Shown one piece after another: positions 1 to 38,085 of a DNA stretch of 64,000 nt; position 1 is the stretch's first letter, and each line of letters begins with the position of its first letter. Origin of the DNA: Datnioides undecimradiatus. Its lineage: Eukaryota; Chordata; Actinopteri; Lobotiformes; Datnioididae. The stretch covers positions 1,578,001-1,642,000 of the forward strand of contig WARS01000031.1 in assembly GCA_008933995.1 (NCBI GenBank), in the 5' to 3' direction. Position numbers and translations under genes: made by a program. Under the pieces are notes generated by a model that was given only the letters and a program-made list of their open reading frames with translations, was not told the origin of the DNA and did no database searches.

Positions 1-3000
1 AAAATCCCAGTTTAATCCTCTTCAATCTAACTGGGCAGACTGCAGAAACCCCGTTCTATGTAAAGGTTATGCTGCTGTGGTTCAAATATTTTTAAGGGGT
101 CTCTTACAGTTTTCATGACTAGAAAACAAATTCGTATTCTCCCCTGACATGCAATATTAATCATTTAATTAATGTTTCTTTTGGGACCAAAAACTATTTT
201 AAATTATTTTATTTTTGGTTTCGGAATTCCACAGTTTTGTATCTGTGTTGAAAAGCCATTATTGAAGATAGGAAGAAAAAGCGCAATATTACAGCTGACT
301 CCAAACCTTTGAGTTGTCGGGTATGTTTTAGCTGTGGTTAATGGAAATTTGAACCCCAAGCAGTTTTCTGAATGATTTAAATTTGGAGATGCTGCTCAGA
401 GGAGCGTGGCTCCTCGTTACTTAATGGTGCTCATGGGACGGAGAGTGCCATTCTGCAGTGAAAAGCACCATGATGAGTTTCTCGCTATGTCTTGTCAGGT
501 TGAATGAACAGAAAAGAGGTTCTGGCATATATTTGTTGCTTCTTAAATGAAAAGCATCATGATAATCATCTTCTATCCAGAATTCATTCAAGGCCTGTCA
601 GTGTGAAAAACTCTTTCACAACTTCCTCAACATGTTCAGCAGCTTCAGTGTCACCTTACGCATCAGCAAATGTGTGTAATCTGCCCACGAGCTATCAAAC
701 TATCTGTAAAGGTAATGATTTTTTTCCTTTACATAAAAACACTCATCATTTAATCGTCTCACAGTCTCTCCTGTGGCGCTGTGCATGGCATCCATGGGTG
801 AACATGTTTCATGCTCCTTCAGCCACATCATGCTGCACATTTTCAACCTGTCAGCTTCCATGAGCTTCCTCTCCACCAGGGACACTGCTGCCTCTGAAAG
901 CAAGAAGCCAGACATGAGGGATCTTCAGGACATGTACTCCATACAACACGTGAGGAAACTACTCAGCTAAAATTAACCAGGAAAACATTGAAATTAATTA
1001 TGTTTTTATTTTCTGCAGTGCAACACTTTTTCTTTTTGGCCTGCAGCCTCGTACCTAAACTTGAATAAAGCGCTGCAGATGAGTGGATGGCCTCATTCTT
1101 AACCTGCAGCAAAATGCAATTTCCCCTCCGGCGTGACATGTATTTAAAATATCTGAGGGAGAATTTAAAAAATGTGTCAAAGATAATTTCATTACTACTT
1201 TCTATAATTGACTTCATTAATAGACCGTGTCCCAGCCAAGTTGAACCACTCCTAACATCTTAAGTAGGGAAACGTACTATCCTAACTATACAGCGAACTA
1301 AACCACTCTGCTTTTACTCCACCAGCTCTTTGATATAACATTTGTGATCACTTTGAACTACTTGTACGTGGCTCTCGTGTGTTGCTACATTGTCAAAAAC
1401 ACAATATAGCACAAATTAGCTTCTGACTCAGAAACACTGCAGAACGTGTTTGCTGTCTGTGCGCATATAGATGTGTGTGTGTGCGTGTGTCTTCCCACCC
1501 CCTCACTTGGAGTGATCCTTGCTCTTGTGAGATGTTTTTGTCCTATGTGAAGCTTCACAGCTGAATGGGCCGTGGTTGGGCGAGGTGAGTTCAGTTGACC
1601 CTGAGGTCACATGAAGACAATGGTGGCCGGGCTTCTATAGGAAGAACAAAAACAGAGACCCCCGGGCTCATGGCCCCTGTCGTGGCAGGGGCTTGGATAT
1701 GGCAGGCCATTTTAGAAAAAAAGGGGAAGAAGTGGTGCTGCATCAGAGGGGATGTTTTGGATCTCAAGTACGAGCTTGAATATCACAAGTGCTGCCAGCA
1801 GGGTGTTTTAAGTTGCCCATTCTACCCAGTGAGTCTTTTCTCTGCTTGGCTTCATTGCGCAAAAATAACAAAATGTTTTCATGCCTGTACGTGCCTCTGT
1901 ATCGTCAATAGACTACTTTTCTTTTATCTCTACCCCATATTATAGAAACTTATATATGTGGAACGTGTCCTAAAATACTTTTGCACCTGCTCTGATCACA
2001 GTGCTCAGATCTTTAACCATCATTCGTGCAGAGGACGTAGAGCTAGAGAAGAGGAGGGGGAGGTCTATCAAGGAGAGCCCTAAGCTTTTATCTGACCCCA
2101 TGGGACGATGTGAAGTCTACAACCTCCCTGCGTCCACCCACCCCCCCACCTCACTTCCATATGCAGAGGAACTAGCCTCACCACTGGCTTTGTGTGGGGG
2201 GTTGGGGGTCGTGACTAAGCGCTCCCACTCCCACAGTGTACCCCAGAGGAGTGGAGAAAAACAGATTTTCTGCTATTAGGGAGAAAAGTTTTCTATTTGT
2301 TGGTCAGTTGGAGGAGACAGCATTTCATTTCAGATCAAACACACCTTTTTATTAAAGTGGACACCACTGTTGTCTGAAGTCTTTCTAACTAAAACTAATT
2401 CACAGCAACATCAACATATAGAAAATAGATTTCACAGTAAAATGATTCAAAATGTTAAAACTATCAATGAGCTGCTGGAAATACACACTTCCCATCTCTT
2501 ATGAAACTCAGTGAGTTGCATAAATATGATTTTTTTAGGACAGCAGAAACTTCACAGATGGGGAAGTTGTGGTATGGTGCTTCCTCTTACAGTTGAAAAG
2601 CAATCATGTCATTATACAGTATTTAGTTTGCTAGTTCCCTCTGCTGGTCACCTCCCATACTGTATCACACTCATCTATTGGTGCCAATACACAGGATCTC
2701 AGCAGATGATAAAGACAAAAGTGAAGGTCAACACCAAGTTGTGAGTACCACATAAGATAAATAAAACAGCTTGGAGCAACACAAATATGTGCAACTTATT
2801 AACACAACTTATTACTCATAACAATGAGTTGTTGTAATTCCACTAGTGTGCAATCAAAGGTGTAACACCCCATGTGCATTTCATCAAACCTCTGTTATAC
2901 TCTTAAGGGTTGTGCTTAATGTGGGAAAAGGTGGTAATGAATTTGGAAGCTTCCAGTGTTGAAGGGGTGATCCCTTGTTTCTTCGTTATTAAACTAGAAG

Positions 3001-5280
3001 GAGAATGCACTGAAGAACTATTCTTTTATCATTTATTTAGCTGTATTTACGTCTTTGTGCAGTGAACAAAAACATCATTGGAAGGATTTTATTTTAGTTG
3101 TTCTCAGAGCAGCTGGGGGGCTAATACCAACAGCTGAAAGATGTGCTCAGAACATTTACTTGAGTAAAAACACCAATGCAACCATGTTAAAAATGATTAA
3201 AAAAATAATAATAAAAATTTTTACCTTGTTGGGCCACAAACAATTGTAGTAAACAAATAAGATCAGAGAAGTTTAGAGGGGAGATCTTTTTTTTTAACAG
3301 CAGTTGCAACTCATGTGAAACATTTCATGGTGAGGGAATTTATATTGGATATTTCTGTGTGTATTTAATGTAAAATCTTTATTTGAAGAGTAACCACAGA
3401 TTGTTTGGTGGAATAAAAAGTACAAAACTCCCCCCCGAACTCAGAGTTTAAGGAGCATGAAATGGAAAAAAGTCATTCACTCACACACATTTGACTCATT
3501 TCACATTAAAAAAATTGACCAGAATCATGCAAACTGCTAAAATGACTTTGAAGATTTGTCTGGTGATAAATTACTGAAACTCCCCGATCAAACTAAAAAT
3601 TTAAAGTCATGTTAACCCAATCACAAAAATGTTAGAAAACACAAAACATGGAGTTTTGGGAGCTTCAGCTCGATACAGACCAAGAAAATGCGTACAAGGC
3701 ATTGTAAAATGCAGAAAAGTCAGTTTTGCAGAGTGCAAAACTGTTTTTTGATCTGTATGTTTAAGTAGAGACATTTTAACAATTCTTTGATTTCCCAAAT
3801 ACAAATTAATCACACGTTAAGGAGTTTGGAGAGATATTACTATTGAGTAGAAGCGTAAAAAGTATGGTGTGCTGAGTCTGGGCCCTACATCCTGTCTGGG
3901 GGCCCCGAATTCGTTGCAGTACTCGACTGCTTGTCTGTTGTGGTCTAATTGCTTGTGCCTTTGGTTGTAAAGTTTCCACAACATCCAGCTGTTTTGTTCT
4001 AAATATAAGAAGAAAGAATGTGGGCACGAGCTGGCTGTGAGCTCTCTGTGAGCATAAAAACAGATACTACAGGATGTTACAGATATTTTGGTTGATTTCA
4101 AAACGGAACTGTGAATAATATGTACAACAGAAATGGCAGTAATAATTACAAACATTTTATATTAATAATTTTTTTAAAAATACTGTTACTTTTCACACTT
4201 CATGAAAACAATATCAGCAGTTTTAATTGGGTTATTGTAAGAAAAGTACTGCTGCATTTTACTATTTGAAGGCAAAATTCAGATATTACCAACAAGCTAA
4301 TAAATGTTTGTTGTTGTTGTTTTTTTTTTTTTTTTTACTAACTAAACAGTTGTTTGACTACATTTAAAAACTCCTTTATCTGTTTCATTTTTATATATTT
4401 GGTCCTTGGATTATTTTTATATTACTTACAAATATTGTAATAATTTGCTGTATCTTATTTTTGTAAAACCCTAATATTTGTATTTGCATGTAATGACGTT
4501 TGAAAAAGTTTTTAAGTTTTAAAAAATAAGTAACTGTCCCAAAACAACTTTGGAGTCCAACCCAAAACTCACTGATATCTCACTATCAATCACTTTTAAA
4601 TGATTAACTTATTAAAAGCTACAGAATAAACTCTAATCTGACATCACTGTGACACTATTTTGATTTAATGAAAAGAAGAACGTTTCTTTACATATTTTTA
4701 ATTTTTTTTTCAAAGACTTAACCAAAGAAAATATTCATTATCCCTGAAAAAACACATTTGATAGACCTTTATCCTCCTGTTAATGAGACACAGACTCTGA
4801 GTTTGTGAAATGTTCTAATTCTTTGGACTTAGTTTGATATTATTTTTATTTAAATAAGTTTATATACTATAGTATAGTAAGTTTAATACACGTGTGCATG
4901 TCTCCTACAGAAAAATGAATAAAATCAACCACCTTAATTGATCACTTGTGTCCTTGCATCTTTAAAGAAACCCTGAATTACAATTTACTCTGTAAAACAA
5001 CACAATTTTGTTTGTTTTGCCGACAAAAAAATGTGAAAATACATGTACGAATTGCACACTTAAGGCTAATTTAATGTGTTGTGGAGCAGCAACAGGTTAA
5101 TTAGGCTTAGATGTTTTATTTTTGCAGTTAAACGAACACACAGGGCATCTAAATAACATGTGGTCAAGGTGTAGGATAGTTTCACTACTCAGCACCGATA
5201 TATTGATCAAAATAAAGATGAGTTAAAATTGTTTATTATTTTATTAGAATATAAAACTTTAATGGCAACAAAACTACACG
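1..5280. other. Intergenic region upstream of the miR-17-92 host gene
   Basis: This is mostly AT-rich, low-complexity DNA with homopolymer runs, for example the T tract after TTG repeats near 4309-4336. No open frame has recognisable protein similarity. The only coding-like patch is near 760-950 and is listed separately. A short interrupted GT tract lies near 1470-1490, and a CTCF-like core (reverse complement of CCCTCTGCTGGTCA) at about 2638-2651. I see no RNA gene here. Confidence 0.6.
763..949. other. Possible orphan coding exon, strand unresolved
   Basis: Both strands are open here and both can be framed by splice-like signals. On the plus strand, a CTCACAG acceptor ends at 764 and a GTGAGG donor starts at 950, giving a 185-nt frame that contains MASMGEHVSCSF and later KKPDMRDLQDMYSIQH. 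On the minus strand, a TTTCAG acceptor precedes position 893 and a GTGAGA donor follows 763, giving a 131-nt frame that contains LVERKLMEADRLKM and KEHETCSPMDAMHS. Third codon positions are fairly GC-rich in both. I do not recognise either peptide. It could be an exon of an unidentified neighbouring gene, a pseudogene fragment, or chance. Confidence 0.25.
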
Positions 5281-5541
5281 ATTAAGCGGGCGGGTTTTCC
5301 GTTTTGCATGCATTTATATTTATGTATATATTTTTCTTATCAAATGGTGTTGAAACTCGCAGTGATCCCTGGCCGTTTCCCTCTCCTTCCTTGGAAGAGG
5401 TGGAGGCTGTTTGGTTGGAGATGTGGGTCGGAAGTACCGTAGTTTATGTATGCTAATAGGGAGAGTTGGGGGTTGTAGCTAGATATTTACGTTCAGTGGG
5501 AGCCGCCCTTCATTCACCCACATGGTTACCAACTGGTCGCC

Positions 5542-5549
5542 TTCGCGCC
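5542..5549 (+). promoter_or_regulatory. E2F-like site (TTCGCGCC)
   Basis: TTCGCGCC matches the E2F core TTTSSCGC/GCGCSAAA class closely. It sits about 45 bp upstream of the TATA box. E2F1-3 are known activators of the mammalian miR-17-92 promoter, and E2F mRNAs are targets of its microRNAs. Function here is inferred from motif and position only. Confidence 0.5.
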
Positions 5550-5592
5550 ACTTTCGTAACCCCGCAATCATTTCTAACCAGCATATCTGGGC

Positions 5593-5598
5593 TATAAA
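5593..5598 (+). promoter_or_regulatory. TATA box (TATAAA)
   Basis: TATAAA lies in the CpG-rich block, preceded by a GC-containing context and followed at about 30 bp by a pyrimidine-rich stretch (around 5620-5640) suited to transcription initiation. I infer a host-gene start near 5620-5630. Two donor-like sites follow, at 5698 (GTAAGA) and 5753 (GTGAGT), which could end a first exon. Confidence 0.5.
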
Positions 5599-7112
5599 TT
5601 CAACCGCGATCGACTCGGATTTCACTTTACGTTTCGCTTTTGTCCTCCAGTTGAAAAGTTTTCGGATTAGTTATGTATTTATTTCTCTCTTTTGTCGGTA
5701 AGAGACTACACGGCAGCCCAAGCAAGTGAGCGAAGATGGTGGATTTCGGCTGGTGAGTGTCTACCGAGCGCATGTTTATCGGCAAGGAAGTCGGGTTTTG
5801 GGTTATTTTCTAATCTCTATTTTGGAGAATGAAACCTTTAACGGCGTGTTTTACGACTGTTTCGCGTGTCTTAACATCATGTTGGTGGCGATATCCAAAC
5901 ATTAACGCCTAAATGATATGCTTGCGATGAAAACAGTGTAACGTGAGGCGCATGGCAGCCCCCTCTGCTCCACCATTGAGGGAATGAGGGAGATTTGAAA
6001 AGCTGTCCGGAGCTCTCTCCGCTGCGCTTTAGCAACTAGTTGGAAAAAATCCGGGCCCCTGATAAAAACACCCGAGTTTGTGTAAACATAAAACTGCAAT
6101 ATGTGAAAAGTAAGTTTGTAAATCTGGTGAATTTGTTGCTCAGTCTCGAGTGCAGTGGTGTGTGAGTTAAAGTGCCCCCCAGAACAAAGCAGCAGCACAT
6201 GGGGCAGTTTTAGGCCGCGCGTTTTAGCTTAGCTAGCCTAGCCTAGCCGCATCAACTTCATGGGAGTTTTGCGTGGTTGTGCACGAACACCTCGCCATTC
6301 AGACAATTGTCACGGATAAATAAAGGCGAAAAGAAGTTAACAAGGCTAATGCAACGGGTCAAATGTACCGTTAGTGTATTTTCAAACGTGTGCTCGTTTG
6401 TTGTTGGCTAACGGCTAATCAGTGTCGTCAAAAGTCCGTTTCAATTTTATTTGCTTACAAACCACACTAAAAAAATGAGCCGACTGTCTTTCTTTTGTTT
6501 GGTTTTTTTTTTTTTTTTTACTGAAACACATCTGCTGCTCCAGTGCAGTCTCCGATGATAGTTGGGGCAGCTGCAGTAACGATAACACGATTTGCCATGT
6601 TTTCGTGAAGCTAACACCAGCCCGCAGGAGCTAAGCTACCTGCCCAACCAGCGCACGGCTGCTGTTTGCTGCTAACCCCTGCTCCTACATGGACCGCAGC
6701 CTTGTTTTTCTACCAAGTCCGAAACCGCAAGCCACGGCATTCCCTGCAAATAAACACGCACTTGCAATTTTCAGTGTATAACGCCACGCTGGCATGTAGC
6801 TTGGTTGGTTTAAAGTCATTTATGCTAAGGTTGGCGCACTTCGAGGCGCCATGTTAAAGACGGTGGGGGAGGGGTGAACAACACCGAACAACCCTGCGCA
6901 CGCGCTCCCGTGTCGCGGGGAACGCGGGCCGCAGGCTGTGCTCCTCATTCATGTTTTCAGTGACCTCGTGCTGCTGTAATAAATCATAACATCTTGTGTC
7001 ACAACAACTAACTCGTGTAATTATCGACTAATAAGTGGTAATGGCGCACGTTTCTGACGTGGGTGGAAGTGCGAATTCCACGTTTTTGTGTTTAATTAGT
7101 AAAATTTGCTCA

Positions 7113-7118
7113 CACGTG
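7113..7118 (+). promoter_or_regulatory. Canonical E-box (CACGTG) upstream of the cluster
   Basis: CACGTG lies about 180 bp before the miR-17 hairpin and about 1.5 kb after the TATA box. Myc is known to activate the human cluster through E-boxes inside the host gene. It is the only canonical CACGTG I noticed between the promoter and the cluster. Another lies at 8920-8925, downstream of the cluster. Binding is inferred. Confidence 0.4.
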
Positions 7119-7296
7119 CGCAGATATCACCCTGCGTATGTAACTTGTTGCGATGCAAAAACGTCATATCCACTGTCTGAATAAGATGAAATGTATCCTT
7201 TTACTTTCAGATCCACCGTGAAGTGCAGGATCCCAAACACAATTGCAGCATGGAGCTGTGTGACCATGGTGCTGGAGGACAGCGACGCTGTAATCG

Positions 7297-7381
7297 GTCT
7301 GTGTATTGTCAAAGTGCTTACAGTGCAGGTAGTACTATGTAATACCTACTGCAGTGGAGGCACTTAAAGCAATACCCTGAC
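7297..7381 (+). ncRNA. mir17: pre-miR-17 hairpin
   Basis: The 5p arm at 7310-7332 starts CAAAGTGCTTACAGTGC and matches the vertebrate miR-17-5p guide along all 23 nt as I recall it. The seed is AAAGTG. The 3p arm at about 7348-7369 starts ACTGCAGTGGAGGCAC and pairs with it across a short loop (TACTATGTAATAC). Flanking GTATTG and CAATAC extend the stem. It is the first member of the polycistron. The guide represses E2F, CDKN1A and PTEN-type targets in mammals. The 3p arm differs from the human passenger strand at several bases, while the 5p arm does not. Confidence 0.97.
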
Positions 7382-7430
7382 ACTGATGTGCAGATCCATT
7401 GATGTTACATGTCATTTGAAGTACTGTCTT

Positions 7431-7501
7431 TGTGCTAAGGTGCATCTAGTGCAGATAGTGAAATAGACTAGCACCTACTGCCCTAAGTGCTCCTTCTGGC
7501 A
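7431..7501 (+). ncRNA. mir18a: pre-miR-18a hairpin
   Basis: The guide at 7436-7458 starts TAAGGTGCATCTAGTGC, the full 23-nt miR-18a-5p. The 3p arm at 7477-7499 starts ACTGCCCTAAGTGCTCC and also matches the vertebrate sequence. The terminal loop contains TAGACTAGCA, where the human loop has TAGATTAGCA, so both UAG motifs reported to bind hnRNP A1 remain. The seed AAGGTG differs from the miR-17/20 seed by one base. It is second in the cluster, 49 bp after the miR-17 hairpin. Confidence 0.97.
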
Positions 7502-7560
7502 TAAGGGGCTGTGATATGCGCCACCAGACCATTTAATTTCTAATTGGGCTCAAATATCTC

Positions 7561-7642
7561 GCAGTTCTCTGCTAGTTTTGCATAGTTGCACTACAAGAAT
7601 AGATGAGTTGTGCAAATCTATGCAAAACTGATGGTGGCCTGC
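7561..7642 (+). ncRNA. mir19a: pre-miR-19a hairpin
   Basis: The guide is on the 3p arm at 7609-7631, starting TGTGCAAATCTATGCAAA, and is identical to vertebrate miR-19a. The 5p passenger at 7574-7595 (AGTTTTGCATAGTTGCAC start) is also conserved. The stem closes with GCAGTTCTCT against GGTGGCCTGC. miR-19 members, seed GTGCAAA, are the main oncogenic component of the cluster in mouse lymphoma through Pten repression. Confidence 0.97.
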
Positions 7643-7798
7643 TTGCTCTCCACCTGTTTAGATTTTTTTTTTTTTTGTATTTTTTTGGTTTGGGGGATGT
7701 CACATCAAACACAATTTGATTGCATCATATTCATGTATTACTGTTTTTTGTTTTTGAAAACAGGACTATTTGCCAGTTTTCATCCAGTGACAGTTTCA

Positions 7799-7871
7799 GC
7801 AGTACTAAAGTGCTTATAGTGCAGGTAGTGTTTTGTCCCATCTACTGCAATGTGAGCACTTGAAGTACTTC
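7799..7871 (+). ncRNA. mir20a: pre-miR-20a hairpin
   Basis: The guide at 7806-7828 starts TAAAGTGCTTATAGTGC, the full miR-20a-5p sequence. It shares the AAAGTG seed with miR-17. The 3p arm at about 7844-7865 starts ACTGCAATGTGAGCAC and differs from the human passenger strand at a few positions. The stem is closed by AGTACT and AGTACTT. It follows a T-rich spacer that separates it from miR-19a by about 155 bp, the second-longest gap in the cluster's first half. Confidence 0.97.
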
Positions 7872-7935
7872 TAACTAACTGCATCTTCCTGAAGCTCATA
7901 TGTTAACAATAGCTTTCAAGACTTCTGTTAATCAG

Positions 7936-8015
7936 CACATGGTCAGTTTTGCTGGTTTGCATTCAGCTTTAACTGTTGTTTGCTGTGCAAATCCATGCAA
8001 AACTGACTACGTGGA
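7936..8015 (+). ncRNA. mir19b: pre-miR-19b hairpin
   Basis: The guide on the 3p arm at 7984-8006 starts TGTGCAAATCCATGCAAA, which is miR-19b, differing from miR-19a by one internal base (CCATG versus CTATG). The 5p passenger at 7945-7967 starts AGTTTTGCTGGTTTGC. Outer pairing is CACATGGTCAG with CTGACTACGTG. The downstream edge is approximate, and an A/T-rich spacer follows. Confidence 0.96.
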
Positions 8016-8136
8016 TGAAATATGTGCAAGTAGAAGTGTTTTTTTTAAAAAAGATTAAAAAAAACAAAACAAAACTGCCTGGTGGGTATTTACACCATTT
8101 AATGTGTATGCTGGTTTAGATATTTGCAGATGTCCC

Positions 8137-8210
8137 TTCCTGTGCAGGTGGGGATTAGTTGCAATGCTGTGTACCTGGAGGTATTGCACTTGTCCCGGCC
8201 TGTGTAGGAA
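8137..8210 (+). ncRNA. mir92a: pre-miR-92a hairpin
   Basis: The guide on the 3p arm at 8182-8203 starts TATTGCACTTGTCCCGG, identical to vertebrate miR-92a. The passenger at 8146-8168 starts AGGTGGGGATTAGTTGC. The outer stem pairs TTCCTGTGCAGG with CCTGTGTAGGAA. It is the last hairpin of the cluster. Only about 1.4 kb separates it from the gpc5 start codon. The seed ATTGCAC marks the miR-25/92 family. Confidence 0.97.
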
Positions 8211-8857
8211 CGAGGAGATGGAGACGGCGGTCCTTTCAACCAAGTGTTGACTCTATGCTCCTGTTCTGTAATGGCCGGTTTGGTCTGTATGACATGTATA
8301 TGATTACTGATGGGGATGAGTTTAAAGTGTGAAATTGTAGTAATGTTTGAAATGTATTAAAATTTGAACAGTTATTTTTCTCTGAATGCTTTATTATACA
8401 AAACTCATAACCGTTTGTAGATGTTAGTCATCAAATACATGTTTTGGTTTGAATTAATTTAAGGTAGTTCCTGTTCGTATACATACAGCTTTGGAAGCGT
8501 TTCAAAATGTTGAAATAATGGTATTTAACCATGGAATTCAACTTATTAAGCAAGCAGTTATTTTTGTAATCTAACATTTGAATGGATGTCATGTTGACAA
8601 ACTCAAGCACATTAAATGAGTCATCACCTATTGGGGCTCTAAAGGCTACAGTATCTTAATCTTTGAACTTCAATTTGAGCGCACAGCAGTGAAGTTTGTA
8701 GTGATCCTAGACTGAAAAAGATAAAATTGGTGCCCTCCTTTACATTCAAGAGCAGTGCAGATGATAGACAAGACAAATGTTGAATGAGGGAATTTAAGAC
8801 ATGCCAAATGAGTTGTACCTCTAAGCTTTAAAACCTTTAAAACTCTACAGCACTGGA

Positions 8858-8873
8858 AATAAAGTTCAATAAA
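8858..8873 (+). terminator. Tandem poly(A) signals, possible 3' end of the miR-17-92 host transcript
   Basis: Two AATAAA hexamers lie at 8858-8863 and 8868-8873, followed by a GTGTGATGCATTGTTTT stretch that resembles a GU-rich downstream element. They are about 650 bp after the last hairpin. Assignment to the host transcript is inferred from position. Confidence 0.4.
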
Positions 8874-9259
8874 AGTGTGATGCATTGTTTTCCTGAAAGG
8901 AATTAAGGATTGCAGCTGACACGTGGTGCATTATAGTTACAATCACACTTATTTTTTTTAATTCAGACTTTTAAAAATTGGTTGAATGATCAAGGTGAAC
9001 AATTTAATTTTAAACTAGCAAATAAAGACAAACTAGACGCTTTAACAGCGCGGTCTTTTCGCAAAACATTACGATGCATTGAAATGAACACGCGTTTTTC
9101 GGTGTTACTAAGCTGGCAGATACTCTGTCAGGCACCCCTTTTACTTTGCCTTAACTCTGCATACATGGCACTTTTAAGAGATCAAACTAACGTGTATGTA
9201 GAAGTGACTACTGTTTTACTTCAACGCAGCAGTTTAAATAATTATGGATAAAAAGAAAT

Positions 9260-9621
9260 GACAGTCTTATGGAACTTGAAGCCCGTCCACTAGGTGGCGG
9301 TGTCTGCCTGCGGCTCGGTTGCACATGCAGCCGAGGAGTGCAGGTAACGCCACGGTACCGCCTCTGCTGTCGGTCCAACCAACTTGGACAACATGCCGCT
9401 CTTAGACAGAGTCACGCCGCAGCAACTTTCTCTCTGTGTCCGGATTTAAATGATTAACCGGGGCGTCTCATCGACACAAACACAAACGCCACATGGTCGA
9501 CGCTGATTCCTGAAACCTGAAATGTAGATGCGTCTCACCTGAGCGGACTTTAGGTTCAGAAGAAACCTCACTTTACAGAGAGGCTGTTTTTGTGGAGAAT
9601 TAACCCGGGATTTTTACTAAA
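9260..9621 (+). promoter_or_regulatory. gpc5 promoter / 5' leader region
   Basis: This stretch is richer in CpG than the DNA on either side, for example around 9305-9365 and 9405-9420. It runs directly into the gpc5 start codon. No clear TATA box is visible. An in-frame TAA at 9601-9603 lies seven codons before the ATG, so translation cannot start further upstream in this frame on the unspliced leader. The exact transcription start cannot be placed. Confidence 0.45.
9287..9302 (+). promoter_or_regulatory. CTCF-like motif between the miRNA cluster and gpc5
   Basis: CCACTAGGTGGCGGTG is a close match to the vertebrate CTCF core (CCASYAGRKGGCR). It lies about 320 bp upstream of the gpc5 start codon, just before the CpG-richer gpc5 leader. 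An insulator or promoter-proximal loop anchor is a reasonable inference; occupancy is unknown. Confidence 0.5.
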
Positions 9622-9772
9622 ATGCCTGTGCTGTGGACGAGCTACATCTTCCTCCTGGCGTGTTGCTCTGGATTAGGGTTTGGAAACCCAAACAGATGCG
9701 ATGAAGTGCGCAAAGTTTTCCAACTCAGGCAAATTGGACCAAATCAATTATTGCCTCTAAGTCCCAGGCCAG
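9622..9772 (+). CDS. gpc5: gpc5 exon 1 (coding part)
   Basis: It encodes residues 1-50 plus the first base of Gly51. A hydrophobic signal peptide (IFLLACCSGLGFG core) is followed by NPNRCDEVRKVFQLRQIG, which matches the glypican N-terminal C-x-E-V-R-x-x-F-Q motif. The start was chosen because it gives the signal peptide and because an in-frame TAA lies just upstream at 9601. The donor is G|GTAAGT, phase 1. Confidence 0.95.
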
Positions 9773-12700
9773 GTAAGTTGAAGCAATAGTGTGTGTTACT
9801 GTCTGGTTAATAGGTCATTCCTGTATTCCCCTGCCACATGACTTGTTGATTAGTTGTATTTTCTTAATTCCCATCTTCATAGCAACCAAACAATCAACAT
9901 GTCAACCGCTGATTGAAAGAAATATGCTGTGTTGGAAAATCACTCAGCAGTCTTACCTTCCTGTAGGGCTCATTAACTGCACTGTAGCTTTTAACCTGTC
10001 ATTTTCTGGCTTCTTGAAGCACTCCTTGTAGTCCCAAAACACACCTTTTTAAACACATTTCAGAGGCGTGTGTGCAGTTATGATAATGATATAGACAGCA
10101 GAGGAGGAGACCTTTGAGCTGTTTAAATGGCATCTTTTTGTGTGACTTTTAAATTAAGATATTTAGAGGAATTTCTGCATGTGCTTCAAATTACTGCATG
10201 AATAAACACTTGACTCACAGAGGTTTCTCTTCTTTTTGAATAAGATGTCATTTTTGGACTAGTTTAGGTTCAGGAGAATGTCACGTTTGTAAAAAAAACA
10301 AACAAAAAACATTATTATATTTGAAATACACTTTCAAACTTCAGCTTGAGGAACAGGAGTGGGTTTTGAGTGTTTGTACATGTGAAAAGACAACATATAA
10401 AATGTATAAATTATTGTTTACATCACATTATTAACAGTAGTACATGGACTAATATAAAATGTGCCATTTTAATCCAAACTGAGGAACTAAAGCCACTGAG
10501 ATTACTTGTTGGTTGTAACAGGAAAAAAACCCCCAACTCTGCTCCCTCCAGCTGACTAAAGCAGATAAGTGGCTTGCAGGGATAAACAGGAATTATTTTG
10601 TGTAAAGTTAGGTAAACTAGGCTTCACTTAACTTTCTGAACACCACCCATAATGTAATTCCACATGCTGCTTCTCCACAAGATTTAGGGGGAATTATGGG
10701 TGTGGATATTTCATGTGGGCTGTCATTGACCGGACGACTTGCTGCTGCTGCTGCTGCTGCTGCTCTCTGTGCTCCTCTTGGAAAAGTAAATCTTAATGGT
10801 GTTGACTGCCATCCTGCCACAAACTGCTCCCTATAAACTTGGCCACCCCTTTCCTCTCCTTTTCACTGCTGCGAGGGAACCGGTTCAATTGACAGAAAAC
10901 CCTCAAATGCCCACTAAACCTCTAAATAACCCTTATAATGCCATCACCACTCCTGCCCCTGAAATGAGCCTGTGTGACTGTTCTCTAGTGTATTTTAATC
11001 TCTGCGCTGTTTCTTTGCACAGTTACAAACTGAAATGTCCTTTTTCTAAGATAAATTGCGTGCAGTGGGTTGTTTCCTGCAGTTAAAGAGACGATAAGCT
11101 CCTGATTCAGTGGCTTCTAACCCTGTAACAACACTTGCTACTGTTTATAACTGCACCTCCTCTGACCCTTATGGCTGCCCCACACAGCTGAAAGGTCTTC
11201 CAAGTCCAAATGCATCTTGACTTTGGAAAGATGTATATCATTTTTCTGATGGATAGAGATTAATGTAGTGAAATAAACCAGATATGGTAATGGGAGATAT
11301 TCCTGCAGTTGATCCTAGAGCACGATTTGAGAAGTTATCTATAATTGAGTGTGGGCTTGTGAAAAATAACCTCCTGAAATTCCAGGAATCCCAGAGTGAG
11401 AGAGAGAGAGAGTTGTTTCCATGTAATAAGACGTGCCAAACAGCCTTTACTTTAGGTCAGAACACAGCAAGCCAGAAGTCTGTCACCTCGGCCAAACAAA
11501 GCTGTTGTCTGCCGGGTTGGAAGGCATTTAAAGAAAAAAAAAAGAAAACAAAACCTGGTGCTGTTTCAAGTCGTCTTATCTGGGAGAGTTTGAATTCCTG
11601 CTCGTGTGCCATCGCCTGCTCTGCTCCCTCCTCACATGGGGAGCTGATAGCGTCTCTGGCAACAACGCAGCCTGCATGCTCTGCCTAGGCACGTCAGAGA
11701 GGCTTTTTTTTTTTTTGCAGAGTTTTGGGTCGCTTTTAAGATGTTTTGATTGTCCCGTATGCGCGTGGATTGCTTACATTCGTCCCTAGTGGAAAAACCT
11801 GAGACACATCACTCGGTGAAGCGATAGCACTTCATCTCAGATCTCCTCTCGGGATCTATGTGTTTTGGTTTTCTTGCTCCGCTAAAGCATGTTTCAGCCT
11901 ATGCACAACTACTGTATGTGCCTCGATCTTTTCTTTCAGGCATGTATGCCAACATTATGGCTTTAAAATAAATCATATTAACTGAATCAACTGCTTATGA
12001 TTCACGCAGACAATATTTCTTGATCACCCAATGATTAGTAAGCTTACTATTCATTCATATTAGCTATCATGTCCTTTTTAAACTTGTAACGACGTTTGAA
12101 AAAGTGTTAATTTAATTGCCCCCGCTTCCTGTCGCTGACACACACTCAGATTTTGCTGCTACATTAGGCAGAAGTAGCTGTTCAGGATTCATCAGCAAAC
12201 ACCCTGACTGATCATTATATCAATGAGAGTGTTTGCTGCTACATTTACAGCTACATTAACAGCTCTGTGCCGATCAGCACACTGCTGTCTTTTCACCATT
12301 AGCTGTAAGCCTGCACACTTCAGCTAAAACAACAGTCAGGACAGCCCCAGTGGCAAAGTCTTTGGCCTTCAACACCACTGCTAACATATTATTCAGTTTT
12401 TAACTGATACTTACCACAGCGTAAGTTTGTTGGCACTCTATTAACCCCACGCTGCTGCCAGTGATGCACTCATACAATAACTCATCCATGATGGCTGTGG
12501 GTTGTCAGGTTTCGGCCTAGAGACGTGATCAGTTTGGTGACTGTATAGTTCTGATATCCCAACCCTACTTGGCTCCTGACGGTTTGTTCAAAGGCAGTTT
12601 CTGAAAACAGACTGCATGCATTCCTCGGTGGACTGAGCTTTTTCTCACTTTCTCAGTATTTATACTGTATAGCACCTGGACCAACTTTATAATAAAGGAA

Positions 12701-15700
12701 GACATGAAAATCTCAGTTTCTATAATATGGGACCTGAATTCTTCCAGTACTCTAATGACTTGATGGATGATGACCTAATAACTACAGAACTAATGACATT
12801 CCTATCAGCCTGATCTATACTTTGTGTTCAGTGCTAACTAAGGTCGTGAACATGGTTGTAATCATAGTTGGTTCACATAAGCATGTTTGATATTGTAAGC
12901 ATGCAAAGCCTCCCAGGGCTGCTAGTTTGGCCATAGTCTTGTTCCCTTGCTGATGAACGCTGCTAAAGGCAGAAAGCTGCTTGTTACTTCAGACAGGTTT
13001 ATCATACAGATAGTACAGAAGATAGTTAGAGGAACTCACTTATTCATACCTTTGGGCAGTTTAGGGTGTCAAATCAACTTGACTTGTATGTCTTTGGAAT
13101 GTGTAAAGAGAGTGGAGCAAGCTAAAGAGAGCGTGCAGCTCCTCTGCCCCAGTTTATCTCTCACATGTAATCATATCTTAATCCAAAGACTTTAGCCACT
13201 ATGATATATGTCTTTTCTCGATTCATACATTCATATAACCATCAATTATATTTCACTATATTGATAATGATTATATTACTAGTATTTTCTAACATATCAT
13301 TGATTGTTAACAAAAATAGCAAACACATTAACTGGATCAGGAAATCCTGTTTTTTAAATTGAGAAAGGGTTGTACAGATGGTTAACCATCTGAGTTTTAA
13401 AAACCCATCAACATAAAAGATGGGGTTTCATTTTGCAGAGAGACAAATGCTTTTCTCCATGACTGGAATGTTATGGTGATACATGAGAGGCACAAACTGG
13501 GAATGTCAAATCCCGAACAGAGATGACAGCAAATGTAGCCTCTCTCACGCTTGGAAAGGGGAATACCGAGCCACTGTACTCACCACAATTTAATCCCCTA
13601 ACTCTTGTCAATAATATTTTAAAACGTTTAATCTGAATGACTTTTAGGTTCAGACCTTCAGGTGTGCATGTCCAAGAACCTGACGTGTTGCACCAAGAAG
13701 ATGGAGGAGAAGTACCAGGTGGCAGCCCGGAGGGACATCCAGAACCTCCTCCAGACATCCAGCTCCAGCCTCAAGTTTCTCCTTTCACGCAATGTGGCTG
13801 CTTTTCAAGGTGAGGCAGTGTGTTTAGGCGCCACTGTTGCAAAGGTTAAACATCATAAACACGTGCTGAGATGAGAGCGCAAATGTTTACGTGGATAATT
13901 GTACGTGTGTAGATGTTTGTGTGTGTTTCCGAGCTGGAGTATACATTTAGGAGTTTGTGTGGGTGCTGTAAAAACAGTGGATGAGTCAGCGTGTGTGTGC
14001 GTGCAGCGAGGCTCCACATCAGAGCAAACAGAGCAGGGTCTGTACTCCTTCCAGATCTACCACTACACTCTGATCTTGAGATTAGATAGGCTGGCTGTTC
14101 CTGTAGGAGGCTGTCTGTAAGGGTGAATGTCTTTACTGGGGTTTTTACTAACAGCCTCTCTTCCTCTGCAAGGTGTGCTACTTTACAGTGTCCTGACAAC
14201 AAAACCAAATCCTCAGAGTCTGTGTCATGGAACGCACTTAGCCATTCACAAACATGCTGCTGTCCATCCCCACATTTGTTTTCAACCCTCTTATTTCTCT
14301 CATTGTTTTTCATTCCTCTCCGTCCTTCACTCAGCAATGACGGTTGACCTGCAGGCAACAACTCGCCTCTCTCTCTCTGCTGTGTGCTCTTCCTGCCCGG
14401 TGTGGGATGTTTCTCCCACCCGAGCTGATAGCTGTCATATGACGGCTGAAACGGGTGGGCAACAAATACAGAGCTTATGACTTGAATGCGCAGACATATC
14501 ATTAGGCCAATTCCCCTTAACGACGTCTCTCAGTTTAAAGACGTGCTGTTATCCACCCCCTGAACTCGAGTGATTTATAGGAGAGTCTCGCATGATCACA
14601 GTGTTTTAGCTGCGGTTTGCAGGGGCAATGCCCGGTTTTTGTCGTCAGATGTGTGATGTGTCTGCTTATGTTCTGAAGCTGAACTAAAATGCTCTGCATT
14701 TATGATAAAGTTTAAGAAGCATGACGCCTTTTAAAAGAGTCTTGTGAAAATTGTTGAAGTGCAGGTTTTTTAAGGTATAAGACTGGCACCAAAATATATA
14801 TTACTTATTGTCAGTCAAAAGAAGGTTCAACTCTCAGTAATTTACTTTACAGGTCACAGCTATTTTGTCTTATAAAAGGCAGGTAGCCATCCAATTATTC
14901 CAAGCAATTATTCCTGCAGTATGGAGTTTTTTTCATTGTGGACCCTTCCCAGCAACGGATTAATTTAGTGCTCCAGTGAATATTTACAGCAGACAGACAT
15001 GTTTGCGGGATTGACTCAAGTGAAGCAACATGTCCCACAGTGCAACAGTGTGGCTCAGTGGTGTGTTTTTAATACCCTTTGGTCAACAATGGAGGACTGT
15101 GGCATAGAGGACTAAGCTAGCAGGCTTTGGTTTCACAGACAGTATTTGTTTGTAGGATCACTTTAGTGTTGCTTAGTGTTGCTAGATTATCACCTTCCTT
15201 ATTCTTTATATACATTAAGCCATAAGCGTCTTGTAACACCAGAAAGGTTTGTTCACACAGGGAAAAGTCACAAAAGGCTGCAGGAGTTGGTAGTTGTTGA
15301 GCAGCGCTCACATGGTTTCATCTGTGGAATGGCAGCCAGTGTGTGCTCCTGCCAAACCAAACAGAGTTCCCTGTCAACATCAACTCTCATCAGTCAACAA
15401 ACATTGGCGGCTGCTTCCAACATCCAGGCTGCATAATACAAGTGGCAACAGACGCTCAGTCATATAAGTCTCATATTGGAGTCAAAGCAGCAGTATAACT
15501 GCCCTGAATATTATATTTGTTAAGTCATTATGTCATGTTCTTAAAGTGTTTTTGTGATTTATTCAATTACAGTCCAAAGTAGGGATGTAGCTACATATTA
15601 GTTTTATTGCTAATCATATAATGATCATTTCTTCATTTATTCAACAGTTGTTTGTGTCTTAAGTTTCAGAAAATGCCCAAAGCCCCAGCCCAAGCTAATC

Positions 15701-35000: not shown

Positions 35001-38000
35001 TGGATGCCGTAATGCTGCGTTATCTGTACACTGTAAACCACTCTTGTAATGTGCACGCACACACAAACACACACATGCACACGCATATATACAGGAGCAC
35101 ACTTGTAGGCAAAGCTAAATACTGCTTACAGCACTGGGTACACTGCTGTGACAGACAAACGAGCAGCATGATCTGCTTTTGCCTCCTGATGCAGCGGCCT
35201 GCGCATTAGAGTCCGTCGGACAGAAATATTTTCAGGAGTGGAGCTTAGCAGAATTTGCTTGACATTTACTTTCATGGTGATAAAAAATTCATGGGTGGGG
35301 AAAATCATGTGCTGAGAATAGTGAATACATGTTTTTAGGTTGAAAGTGAGCGTCTTATCCGTGTGAAGCATGGGGTCTGAGGCAGGCATGATGCCAAGTA
35401 CAAGTGTGTTTTATTCCAATGGAACAGACGTTATTATAGTTGTTTATTCTGAGGAATTAATTTTTAAAGTACATGGCGAATAGGATATTCTCCATCCCCC
35501 ATTTCTCTCTTAACCTCTCCTCTCCCTCAGCCCAGTCTCTTAACCCCTGCCTTTCTTCTGTCATGTTACTCCTCCTATCTCCCGTCTCTGTTTTATCCAC
35601 TTGTTCTTGTTCTCACTACAGAACTCCCATGACGCGAGGAGTCTTTCTCTCCTCACCTCTCACTGACACCACTCATGCTGGTTTGGAGAAGAAGTGGTTG
35701 GTTTATCAAAACACTCTATGTGCTGTAGCTCTCCTCATAGTTTAGCATAGCACCTTCCGCACTGATGTGTTGTTACCACTCGCTTTTTCATTTATCTTTG
35801 TCAGCACAGCTCTTGATTAGAGAACATATTGCTTCCCTGAAACTCCCTGTGGTGTGTACAGCCCTAGTCGTAGTATAGCACGGTAGTTTTGGTTACTGCT
35901 TAGGGAGTATTTTTTTTATATTTTATTTCTCTTTGCATGCCTGGCTCTCATTTGGCAACAATGGAAACCTAACTTTGAAACAAAATAAAAATTATCATGT
36001 GTTTAAAACTTGAGTCTTCTTGTCTGTGATCTTTTGTCTTATTACTCTCTCTGCCTTTCCCCTGCTGTCCATCCCACAGACACGTTCGAGGTTCTGATGA
36101 GGCAGGCGGAGAATCACACCAATGTTGTCCTCCAGGAGTCGTACCGCAATATGGCTGATCAGGCCGTGGGCCCTGTGCGGGAGCTCTTCACTGATATTGG
36201 TCTCTTCCTTCTCGGGTCCGAGCTCAATGTTGATGACATGGTACAGCGATTCTTTGATGCCCTCTTCCCGCTGGTCTACAATCACCTCATCAACCCAGGC
36301 CTCAGCGACTTATCAGCAGGCTATGCAGAGTGTGTGAGGTCCTCCAGCCGTGATGTGAGACCATTTGGTGGGACACCTGGCCTCCTGGCTGATCAGATCT
36401 CTCGCTCAGGCGTCTCCGGGAAGCTTCTTCTTCAAGCGTTGCACCTTGGCATCGAGGTCATCAATACCACAGACCACTTACAGCTGAGTCGTGAGTGCAA
36501 ACGGGCTCTGCTCAAGATGCACTACTGTCCTCACTGCCAGGTACGGATACATGTCTCTGAAGTGAGTCTATCGATTGGAAGTAATGAAAGTCTTTTCTAG
36601 CATCACTGATCCCAAAGTAATTTGCTCCGCAGGGCTTAACCCAGTCCAAGCCCTGCATGGGTTACTGCCTCAACGTGATGCGGGGCTGTTTGGCGAGCAT
36701 GGCAGAGATTGACACCCACTGGAGGGAGTTTGTTCGCTCACTGGAGGGCCTGTCAGCACGGATGCATGGACTACAGGATTTAGAGCAAGTGCTTCTGGGA
36801 GTTCACACGCTGCTTCACGATGCTGTCGGACATGCTCAGAAAAATGGACCCCGCCTATCAGCACAGGTCAGAGCATTTTGAGGAGAGATTCGTTGTGCAG
36901 GATATTATACATGGAACTGTACTGGGGCTGTGTGTGTGTCGGGGAAGCCAGTATCACCAGTGAATCTGACTGAATGGGAGATGAGTATATTAAGGGAAAA
37001 GCATTACAGAAGAGATTTCCATTCAGAGTTGTGCTGCCGTTCCAGCTGTTGGCACCATGTCAGATAGGTATGTGGTGTGGAAACCAAAGATAAATTGCTT
37101 GAAATTGCTCAGACCGCACACAACAGGTTGGTCAGACCAGTGCAGGCCAAAACTGTCCAGAAATACATCTATGTGGGCCGCTCCCAGGCGGACGGAAACA
37201 TAATAGTTTAACTGCAAGGCAGAGAAGAATTCAGGCCAATTGCTCTGTGTCAGCAGCCACTCCTCAGGCTTCAACTCAGTTTCTCAAATCAGGAAGTCTT
37301 TATCCATAAAAAATAAAAGTCCAGTCACAATGTATTAACATGCAACTTTATTTTCTTTTCCGTCTACATTTATGTTATTATGTTATTAACTCCCCAGTGT
37401 GTTCCTGAACTCTTTTTGTTCTGATGGAGACGTCACAACACCATCTAGTGGTTACAGAGCGTCACTGCTGCTTTACAGGCTGCACATGCAGTACACTCAG
37501 AAATTGGAGATGATAGGCTTGGCTGCACTAATGGCCTTAGTATAAACAGCTGTCACTCAGCCATCTAAAATAAGGCTTATTTGTCACGCACCAGTACAGT
37601 TTAACAAGATTTAAAATGCATGTTTCTCTCTCGCTGTTTAGACTTAAATTTATGTCTGTCTCATTGGATAATAGGTGCACAAACTGTGTGGCCCACCAAG
37701 CAGGAAGCCTGCGCAGTCAGTCAACATCCAGCACAGCAGCAGCAGCAGCAGAGAATCCATCCCTCTTAAAGCTCATGTTAGAGTGTCAGGGGACTCGCTC
37801 GCTGTCAGGAGAAGGTAAGTGGGTGAAAGATGACAGATGTGTTTTGTAGAAAGAAGTGTCATTTTCTGATTGTTAGTTCATTGAATCGTCAGTTGACATG
37901 CAAAACACTTTATTAAACAAGTTAATTATCTGTGTGCCTGCATGTTGCTGCTTTTTCAGGGACTTTCTCAACAGCTTACGTCTCTACCGCACATACTATG

Positions 38001-38085
38001 GTGGCCTGGCGGATCAGCTGTGTGTGAGTGAGCTGGCCGCTGGTGACGGGCCGTCCTGCTGGAATGGAACAGACATCGTAAAAAG
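9622..38085 (+). CDS. gpc5: Glypican-5 (gpc5), exons 1-6, 3' end beyond the window
   Basis: This is a GPI-anchored heparan sulfate proteoglycan core protein of the glypican-3/5 subfamily, which modulates Hedgehog, Wnt and FGF signals at the cell surface. Six exons (listed separately) give 424 complete codons with matching splice phases. A signal peptide covers about residues 1-21. Outside it there are 14 cysteines, at 26, 57, 64, 65, 189, 244, 254, 257, 266, 270, 277, 341, 404 and 416; fourteen conserved cysteines are the family hallmark. Diagnostic blocks are LFPLVYNHLINPG (166-178), LGIEVINTTDHL (227-238), KMHYCPHCQ (250-258), CMGYCLNVMRGC (266-277) and RLYRTYYGGLADQLC (390-404). These fit GPC5 better than GPC3. 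Possible N-glycosylation sequons are N61, N116, N233 and N418. The human protein is 572 residues, so roughly 150 are missing, including the Ser-Gly glycan sites and GPI signal. The fish paralogue (a, b or c) is undetermined. Confidence 0.96.
10741..10764. repeat. (GCT)8 trinucleotide repeat
   Basis: Eight uninterrupted GCT units lie in gpc5 intron 1. The repeat is not in a coding exon. Confidence 0.95.
12750..12940 (+). repeat. Interspersed repeat fragment, same family as 22175-22735
   Basis: The block contains ACTAATGACATTCCTATCAG, then CTTTGTGTTCAGTGCTAACT, then GTGAACATGGTTGTAATCAT and a final GCTGCTAGTTTGGCCATAG stretch. The same ordered landmarks occur in the longer copy at 22175-22735 (ATGAGCCTCAACTGTACTTTG and TACCTTCTAAACATCAG). 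This resembles a widespread non-coding teleost repeat with many GCTAAC/TTAGCA words. I do not know its formal name, and it carries no protein frame. Confidence 0.55.
13648..13809 (+). CDS. gpc5: gpc5 exon 2
   Basis: 162 nt, phase 1 to phase 1, residues 51-104 plus the first base of Asp105. It encodes SDLQVCMSKNLTCCTKKMEE and the helix that ends SSSLKFLLSRNVAAFQ. The CTKKMEEKYQVAAR block is characteristic of glypicans. Acceptor TTTTAG at 13642-13647, donor G|GTGAGG at 13810. It contains sequon N61-L-T and cysteines 57, 64 and 65. Confidence 0.96.
16031..16088. repeat. (ATCTAT)n-like microsatellite
   Basis: TATCTATATCTATATATCCA-type units repeat with small variations over about 58 bp and end in a TATATATA run. 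It lies within gpc5 intron 2. Confidence 0.9.
16717..16779. repeat. Compound (CA)n-(GA)n microsatellite
   Basis: A CA tract with one CT interruption covers 16717-16744. A GAGA-rich tract with a few C interruptions follows to 16779. Confidence 0.9.
17624..17658. repeat. Poly(A) tract with two G interruptions
   Basis: About 35 bp are A apart from single G bases. No adjacent retroposon body or target-site duplication was recognised. Confidence 0.9.
18530..18715. repeat. Diverged GCTAAC-type interspersed repeat
   Basis: TAGCTTATGTTAGCACAGCTTCGAG is followed by TTATGCTAAGTTAAACTAAC and a TTAATGAGAACGCAAAC stretch. The word content and order resemble the better-preserved copies at 23400-23560 and 23985-24110. 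It is more diverged, so family membership is tentative. Confidence 0.4.
22175..22735 (+). repeat. Long interspersed teleost-type repeat (non-coding)
   Basis: Landmarks in order are TTGACTCACTTTGGTGATCC, TGCCATCAGCTGGTCAAA, ATATCTCAATATCTGGGC, GGATGGATTGTTGTGAAAA, GCCTCAACTGTACTTTG, ACCTTCTAAACATCAGTGTG, TTAGCATTTTCACAGTGAGC and a terminal GGCTGTGGGCTCTCAGTCTTG. From general familiarity this is a very common non-coding repeat of ray-finned fish. A fragment of its second half lies at 12750-12940 in the same orientation. No protein is encoded. It may be a non-autonomous DNA transposon derivative. Confidence 0.6.
23044..23077. repeat. (GT)n microsatellite
   Basis: An uninterrupted GT run of about 24 bp is followed by ATGTGTATG. 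It lies in gpc5 intron 2 and creates spurious VCVCV frames. Confidence 0.95.
23400..23560 (-). repeat. Interspersed repeat, inverted copy paired with 23985-24110
   Basis: Read on the minus strand it contains CTGAAGCTTCATATTAATC, then GACTGGTATCAATCTTCTTG. The plus-strand copy at 23985-24110 has CTGTAGCTTCATATCCAAC and GAGTGGAATTGATGTTCTC at the matching spots. A TTAGCTGGTTAGCATAGCG stretch lies at the far end. The two copies face opposite ways about 430 bp apart. Non-coding. Confidence 0.55.
23985..24110 (+). repeat. Interspersed repeat, direct copy of the same family
   Basis: ATGCTAAGATAACCGGCTGC, TGGCTGTAGCTTCATAT, AGACATGGGAGTGG and TTCTCATCTAACTCTCTGTG are the landmarks. They match a repeat that I associate with many teleost genomes. 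Its partner at 23400-23560 is inverted. Family name unknown. Confidence 0.6.
24600..24795 (+). repeat. GTGGGGACC-type interspersed repeat, copy 1
   Basis: It begins TTTTGTGGGGACCAAAAG, passes through GAGGGTTAGCGTTATAG and ATGGTTATGGGTTAGGC, then GTGCGTTATGTCAAC, CCACAGAGATAGATTTAC and GAGGCTGTGTGTGTTTC. The same elements occur in reverse order and strand at 42640-42840. It is a common fish repeat class by memory; it has no coding frame. Confidence 0.6.
27069..27112. repeat. CA/CATG simple repeat
   Basis: ACACACACACCCACGCATGC is followed by GCATGCATGCACACACGCAC. It is mixed CA and GCAT units. Confidence 0.85.
27330..27372. repeat. (GACA)n microsatellite
   Basis: About ten ACAG/GACA units lie here with one GCAG interruption. 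Confidence 0.9.
27585..27878. repeat. Long polypyrimidine tract
   Basis: The plus strand is almost only C and T for about 230 bp, to 27815, with a shorter extension at 27845-27878. Imperfect TTTCC and CTCCT units make it up. It creates a Ser/Leu/Phe-rich false frame on plus and a Lys/Arg/Glu-rich false frame on minus. Confidence 0.9.
28198..28231. repeat. (CA)n microsatellite, interrupted
   Basis: AACACACACAAACATACACA and further CA units lie in gpc5 intron 2. Confidence 0.85.
29980..30006. repeat. (AC)n microsatellite
   Basis: About 13 uninterrupted AC units lie in gpc5 intron 2. Confidence 0.95.
31870..31909. repeat. (CA)n/(CACG)n microsatellite
   Basis: CACGCACA units pass into a pure CA tract of about 18 bp. 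Confidence 0.9.
35050..35093. repeat. (CA)n microsatellite, interrupted
   Basis: GCACGCACACACAAACACAC with further imperfect units lies in the last kilobase of gpc5 intron 2. Confidence 0.85.
36080..36540 (+). CDS. gpc5: gpc5 exon 3
   Basis: 461 nt, entered at phase 1 and left at phase 0, residues 105-258. It encodes most of the N-lobe and central lobe helices: TFEVLMRQAENHTNVVL, ELFTDIGLFLLGSELNVDDM, FFDALFPLVYNHLINPG, YAECVRSSSRDVRPFG, LLLQALHLGIEVINTTD and RALLKMHYCPHCQ. The NHLINPG and YCPHCQ blocks point to GPC5. The acceptor is CCCACAG and the donor CAG|GTACGG. N116 and N233 are sequons. Confidence 0.97.
36541..36632 (+). other. gpc5: gpc5 intron 3 (92 bp)
   Basis: It runs from GTACGG to CTCCGCAG. 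Its tiny size contrasts with the long introns on both sides of the exon 3-6 block. Confidence 0.93.
36633..36866 (+). CDS. gpc5: gpc5 exon 4
   Basis: 234 nt, phase 0 on both sides, residues 259-336. It starts GLTQSKPCMGYCLNVMRGC with cysteines 266, 270 and 277, then SMAEIDTHWREFVRSLEGLS and a helix ending AQKNGPRLSAQ. The KPCMGYCLNVMRGCLA block is nearly invariant in the GPC3/GPC5 group. Donor CAG|GTCAGA. Confidence 0.97.
36867..37674 (+). other. gpc5: gpc5 intron 4 (808 bp)
   Basis: It runs from GTCAGA to GATAATAG; the acceptor has a weak pyrimidine tract. A minus-strand open frame of 83 codons at 37023-37274 has no recognised similarity. A CTCF-like half core (CCATCTAGTGGT) is at about 37441-37452. 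Confidence 0.88.
37675..37814 (+). CDS. gpc5: gpc5 exon 5, with poly-serine run
   Basis: 140 nt, phase 0 to phase 2, residues 337-382 plus two bases of Arg383. It encodes VHKLCGPPSRKPAQS, then a low-complexity linker with five serines (357-361) made by pure AGC repeats, and ends DSLAVRR. In glypicans this segment is the variable loop next to the convertase-processed region. An exon of this size and phase at this place fits GPC5. The donor is AG|GTAAGT. Confidence 0.9.
37815..37959 (+). other. gpc5: gpc5 intron 5 (145 bp)
   Basis: It runs from GTAAGT to CTTTTTCAG with a good pyrimidine tract. The joined codon is AG|G, Arg383. Confidence 0.92.
37960..38085 (+). CDS. gpc5: gpc5 exon 6
   Basis: 126 nt, phase 2 to phase 2, residues 383-424. 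It encodes RDFLNSLRLYRTYYGGLADQ, then LCVSELAAGDGPSCWNGTDI and VK. The SLRLYR-YGGLADQLC and CWNG-DIVK blocks match GPC5. It contains cysteines 404 and 416 and sequon N418. Donor AAAAG|GTTTGT; the next codon begins with AG. The open frame continues into the intron to a TGA at 38240-38242 if the donor is not used. Confidence 0.95.

Follow-up and report, generated by a model that had tools for sequence, protein, structure and literature searches.

The window (the whole 64-kb stretch of DNA analyzed, C479:1578001–1642000 of a 581-Mb assembly in 497 contigs) contains a canonical miR-17-92 cluster, and we are all but certain of this reading. Most likely, the teleost genome duplication gave rise to two complete copies that have both been retained, of which this is one. 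At the Rfam gathering threshold the window gave six matches in total, all on the + strand and all within positions 7300–8212, with E-values from 4.7e-10 to 1.3e-19. Their order on the + strand is 17, 18a, 19a, 20a, 19b, 92a, and the span is 913 bases (Table 1); the first-pass annotation had described all six members in canonical order within about 0.9 kb, and this was confirmed. A permissive search (E up to 1) of window positions 6500–9500 returned 18 matches, which were the six known hairpins, antisense shadows, and weak sub-threshold matches to other families, with no extra or decayed member. The cluster is real but ordinary: a textbook miR-17-92 of an already known kind.

Table 1 Features of the window (positions are those of the window; z, precursor fold score; "= human", identical to the human sequence)
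Feature	Position	Strand	Details
mir-17 hairpin	7300–7378	+	RF00051, 71.8 bits; guide miR-17-5p 7310–7332 = human; z −3.44
mir-18a hairpin	7426–7507	+	RF00051, 63.9 bits; guide 18a-5p 7436–7458 and passenger 7477–7499 both = human; z −3.00
mir-19a hairpin	7564–7639	+	RF00245, 63.2 bits; guide 19a-3p 7609–7631 and passenger 7574–7595 both = human; z −3.04
mir-20a hairpin	7796–7874	+	RF00051, 75.8 bits; guide 20a-5p 7806–7828 = human; z −5.59
mir-19b hairpin	7935–8014	+	RF00245, 78.6 bits; guide 19b-3p 7984–8006 = human; z −6.22
mir-92a hairpin	8136–8212	+	RF00464, 78.5 bits; guide 92a-3p 8182–8203 = human; z −6.30
Putative promoter stretch	5439–6229	+	CpG-rich; four collinear pieces also conserved at the C468 copy; both CACATG (5519, 6196) have an aligned counterpart there
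gpc5-type glypican gene	9622–64000, past window end	+	Pfam PF01153; exons given in the text

Guide and passenger arms were compared with human sequences only. All six guides matched the human mature sequences listed in Table 1 of PMC11045601 with 0 mismatches, so that the guide-strand conservation asserted in the annotation held throughout; by chance, any particular 22-mer would be expected to match exactly ~7e-9 times (64 kb, both strands, uniform bases). The passenger arms differed from human by 3 (17), 0 (18a), 0 (19a), 3 (20a), 2 (19b), and 3 (92a) bases. When the six passenger-arm strings of the window were looked for in the literature, two (18a and 19a) were found, both of them common to human, and no fish reference was gained.

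When the precursors were cut at the Rfam borders, all six folded as hairpins, with z from −3.00 to −6.30 (200 shuffles). In 101-nt segments the z values for 17, 18a, 19a, 20a, 19b, and 92a were −2.82, −1.95, −3.23, −4.68, −6.09, and −5.09, respectively, and the canonical hairpin of 18a was not formed. By minimum free energy, 18a likewise ranks weakest among the six human precursors in that same table of PMC11045601. A CNNC motif starting 16–24 nt downstream of the 3' arm was present in four of the six hairpins (18a, 19a, 20a, and 92a), and in the same four of the second copy on C468 described below; none was found in this interval for 17 and 19b in either copy. At a CNNC background of 0.31 per position, these motifs give weak support to the canonical reading. 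The basal UG was seen in none of the 12 hairpins of the two copies at the single basal position inspected.

Searches of the whole genome located related clusters. The mir-17 family had at least 10 matches in four places (three each on C479 and C468, two each on C482 and C467), and among the matches listed for the mir-92 family were those on C479 and on C468, as well as an antisense shadow that fell short of the cut-off. Because only the best 57 of 91341 first-look candidates were scored for mir-17, and the best 57 of 51114 for mir-92, these counts are lower bounds. Rfam searches of 10 kb around the places on C468, C482, and C467 gave 14 matches. A second cluster with all six members, arranged as on C479, occupies C468:8488466–8489584, and its six guides are also exact to human. 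The clusters on C482 (two mir-17, mir-19, and mir-25) and C467 (18-like, 17-like, mir-19, and mir-363) have four members each. More than one cluster copy in a fish genome, as the annotation had anticipated, is what we found. No remnant cluster was detected at the Rfam threshold in ten 10-kb stretches, comprising the 20 kb upstream of the first glypican on C476 and on C312, C468:8494001–8534000 and 8474001–8484000, and C479:1568001–1578000. Separately, 39 bases of the window (4301–4339) are 87% identical to C467:5988880–5988918, near the miR-363 type cluster, and are perhaps a dispersed repeat.

Among the 20 hairpins of the four clusters, the reciprocal best match of each C479 hairpin was the C468 hairpin in the same position, with 78.2–95.1% identity. 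The two copies thus share members, order, and guides, but their inter-hairpin spacings differ (47, 56, 156, 60, and 121 bases on C479; 419, 74, 84, 45, and 27 bases on C468). The same-position best matches and differing spacings are consistent with duplication of the cluster as a unit, after which the copies diverged for the most part in sequence other than the guides. The long mir-17/mir-18 spacer on C468 (L009 4543–4961) has no Rfam match up to E 1 inside it; a permissive search (E up to 1) of the C468 copy (L009 4300–5800) also gave 18 matches: the six established hairpins and their antisense shadows, the rest being weak hits of other families below threshold.

Because all these clusters draw on shared families, we considered whether the C479 cluster could be another paralog, of the miR-106a-363 or miR-106b/93-25 type, such as those on C467 and C482. 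The exact 18a, 19a, 20a, and 92a guides in canonical order on C479 refute that assignment, and we regard it as exceedingly improbable. All six human miR-17-92 guides are exact and in order on C479, whereas none of the six is exact in the 10 kb around either the C467 or the C482 cluster; mir-363 and mir-25, which have matches on those two contigs, have none at the Rfam threshold in the 64-kb window. The nearest glypican on C479 is most like Glypican-3 among solved structures, yet it is only 42% identical to the gpc3-type exon on C467. A different concern arises from the sequence redundancy of two copies that carry the same guides: the C479 cluster might be an old copy, now silent, with C468 having taken over its function. 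We consider this very unlikely. Divergence to the extent given above has affected the hairpins elsewhere but none of the six guides, as selection acting on the guides of both copies would produce; pieces upstream of the cluster have also been kept between C479 and C468. The C479 cluster is best read as a canonical miR-17-92 copy maintained alongside that on C468.

The teleost genome duplication as the cause of the two copies is what we infer from copy number and published patterns. All five fish examined in PMC5584509 (killifish, zebrafish, medaka, stickleback, and fugu; for zebrafish also PMC4421800) are described, in the excerpts of these sources, as having two perfectly conserved, complete miR-17-92 clusters and up to two smaller, less conserved ones. 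With two complete and two four-member clusters, the present genome shows a zebrafish-like cluster set. The annotation had proposed that a complete copy is informative for assigning paralogy. This proposal was not supported: completeness and guide identity cannot separate the copies, because the C468 copy is also complete with all six guides exact, and the excerpt of PMC5584509 reports two conserved copies. Its further statement that copies often lose members stood in part; partial copies do exist, as in the swamp eel, for which that excerpt describes a two-member miR-17a/18a copy and notes that duplicated members could be lost, but both miR-17-92 copies are complete here and in the five fish. 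On the sequences compared, passenger arms, loops, spacing, the upstream block, and the glypican neighbors would tell the paralogs apart better.

The neighboring gene downstream is a glypican on the same strand, with its ATG 1.4 kb from the cluster and a GTAAGT donor after the first exon. Its further exons lie at 13653–13808, at 36079–36540, from 36633 to ~36878, and within 37877–38239, where the PF01153 match of 24.8 bits is below the 26.4-bit cut-off; the last match is at C479:1644458–1644583. Compared with solved structures, the large exon fitted Glypican-3 best (165.6 bits) and Glypican-1 with 55 bits; because it is nearer Glypican-3 than Glypican-1, the neighbor is of the GPC3/5 type, a grouping that we assume. 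The name gpc5 is likewise our assumption, made partly from the position of the gene beside miR-17-92. We take human miR-17-92 to be linked to GPC5, and a matching glypican neighbor was found here. Positions 36541–36632 form a predicted 92-base GT-AG intron of phase 0 that splits this large exon; neither the gpc3-type gene on C467 nor a related gene on C476 has an intron in the corresponding exon. The predicted intron looks like a gain.

Four gpc5 peptide pieces, all of which matched themselves in the window, found nothing better than E 0.1 in C468:8474001–8534000, and when the large gpc5 exon was searched against the whole genome, its sole match on C468 was a distant gpc6-type exon, 24% identical. 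Because neither the peptide nor the exon search found one, the C468 copy seems to be without gpc5, having apparently lost it. A second glypican on C479 (1725955–1848408), on the opposite strand, is nearer Glypican-1 and -2, and a gene like it lies on the + strand after the C468 cluster; we call both gpc6-type on the basis of presumed synteny. The gpc6-type exons are on the strand opposite to gpc5 on C479 but on the same strand as the cluster on C468, an arrangement that points to a local inversion on C479. Two more sets of glypican exons, at C476:4444598–4600336 and C312:20325318–20407724, are possibly another glypican paralogon in two copies; the 20 kb upstream of each gave no match at the Rfam threshold. 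The glypican on C482 was considered as gpc2, from presumed human synteny; its exon fitted Glypican-1 (60.4 bits) better than Glypican-2 (51.5), and the name is unsupported by that exon alone.

The two copies also share a CpG-rich stretch 1.1–1.9 kb upstream of the cluster. When window positions 1–12000 were compared by blastn with C468:8474001–8504000, collinear matches besides the hairpins were obtained at 5439–5559, 5723–5746, 5928–6003, and 6152–6229, with 59.9, 40.1, 60.8, and 59.9 bits, respectively. The best values in ten other 10-kb stretches, used as the null, were 28.3–39.2 bits in nine and 49.1 bits in one (L011). Three of the pieces exceed all ten; the 40.1-bit piece counts only through its collinear place, because alone it is within the null range. 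A 131-base piece (5430–5560) was found genome-wide only at the C479 and C468 miR-17-92 loci, in a search that skips simple repeats and very common words. The CpG observed/expected ratio was 0.87–1.17 in 500-base bins from 5501 to 7000. The two CACATG motifs of the stretch, 1.8 and 1.1 kb upstream of the miR-17 guide, align with CACATG at C468 positions 8485905 and 8486584; because the hexamer is common (15 occurrences of CATGTG or CACATG in window positions 1–12000), they count only through this conservation. The strict E2F pattern TTTSSCGC was absent from window positions 1–12000 and from C468:8474001–8504000. A GGCGCGA core, which we take to be E2F-like, is present in the upstream alignment of the two copies. 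We give even odds to the reading that 5439–6229, with its two conserved CACATG E-boxes and the putative E2F-like core, is an ancient promoter of miR-17-92 that both teleost copies have retained from the genome duplication onward.

The human cluster (MIR17HG, C13orf25) resembles that on C479 in its six members and six identical guides, and presumably also in member order. It differs by the 0–3 bases in each passenger arm and in the distance to the glypican, which is only 1.4 kb on C479 and, we assume, tens of kb in human. According to the excerpt of PMC3709785, the human host-gene promoter lies within a CpG island, and ~1.5 kb upstream of miR-17 there is a functional and conserved CATGTG E-box that is a MYC site. 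The likeness of the C479 stretch to this MYC-responsive region suggests that the promoter may be shared.

From established knowledge of such clusters, the C479 copy would probably be transcribed rightward as one primary transcript from the putative CpG-rich promoter, possibly under MYC/E2F control. Drosha and Dicer would cut this transcript into six pre-miRNAs. Guides of four seed families (17/20, 18, 19, and 92), chosen as is usual for the cluster, would then be loaded and would repress mRNAs for cell-cycle, apoptosis, and growth-control functions.

For fish the findings carry a caution: completeness and guide identity do not name the duplicate, but glypican neighbors, passenger arms, spacing, and the upstream stretch can. 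The cluster adds another well-conserved example of a microRNA cluster famous for its role in growth control. If the reading of the upstream stretch as an ancient promoter is true, both copies would remain under MYC/E2F control, and selection would have kept dosage rather than sequence.
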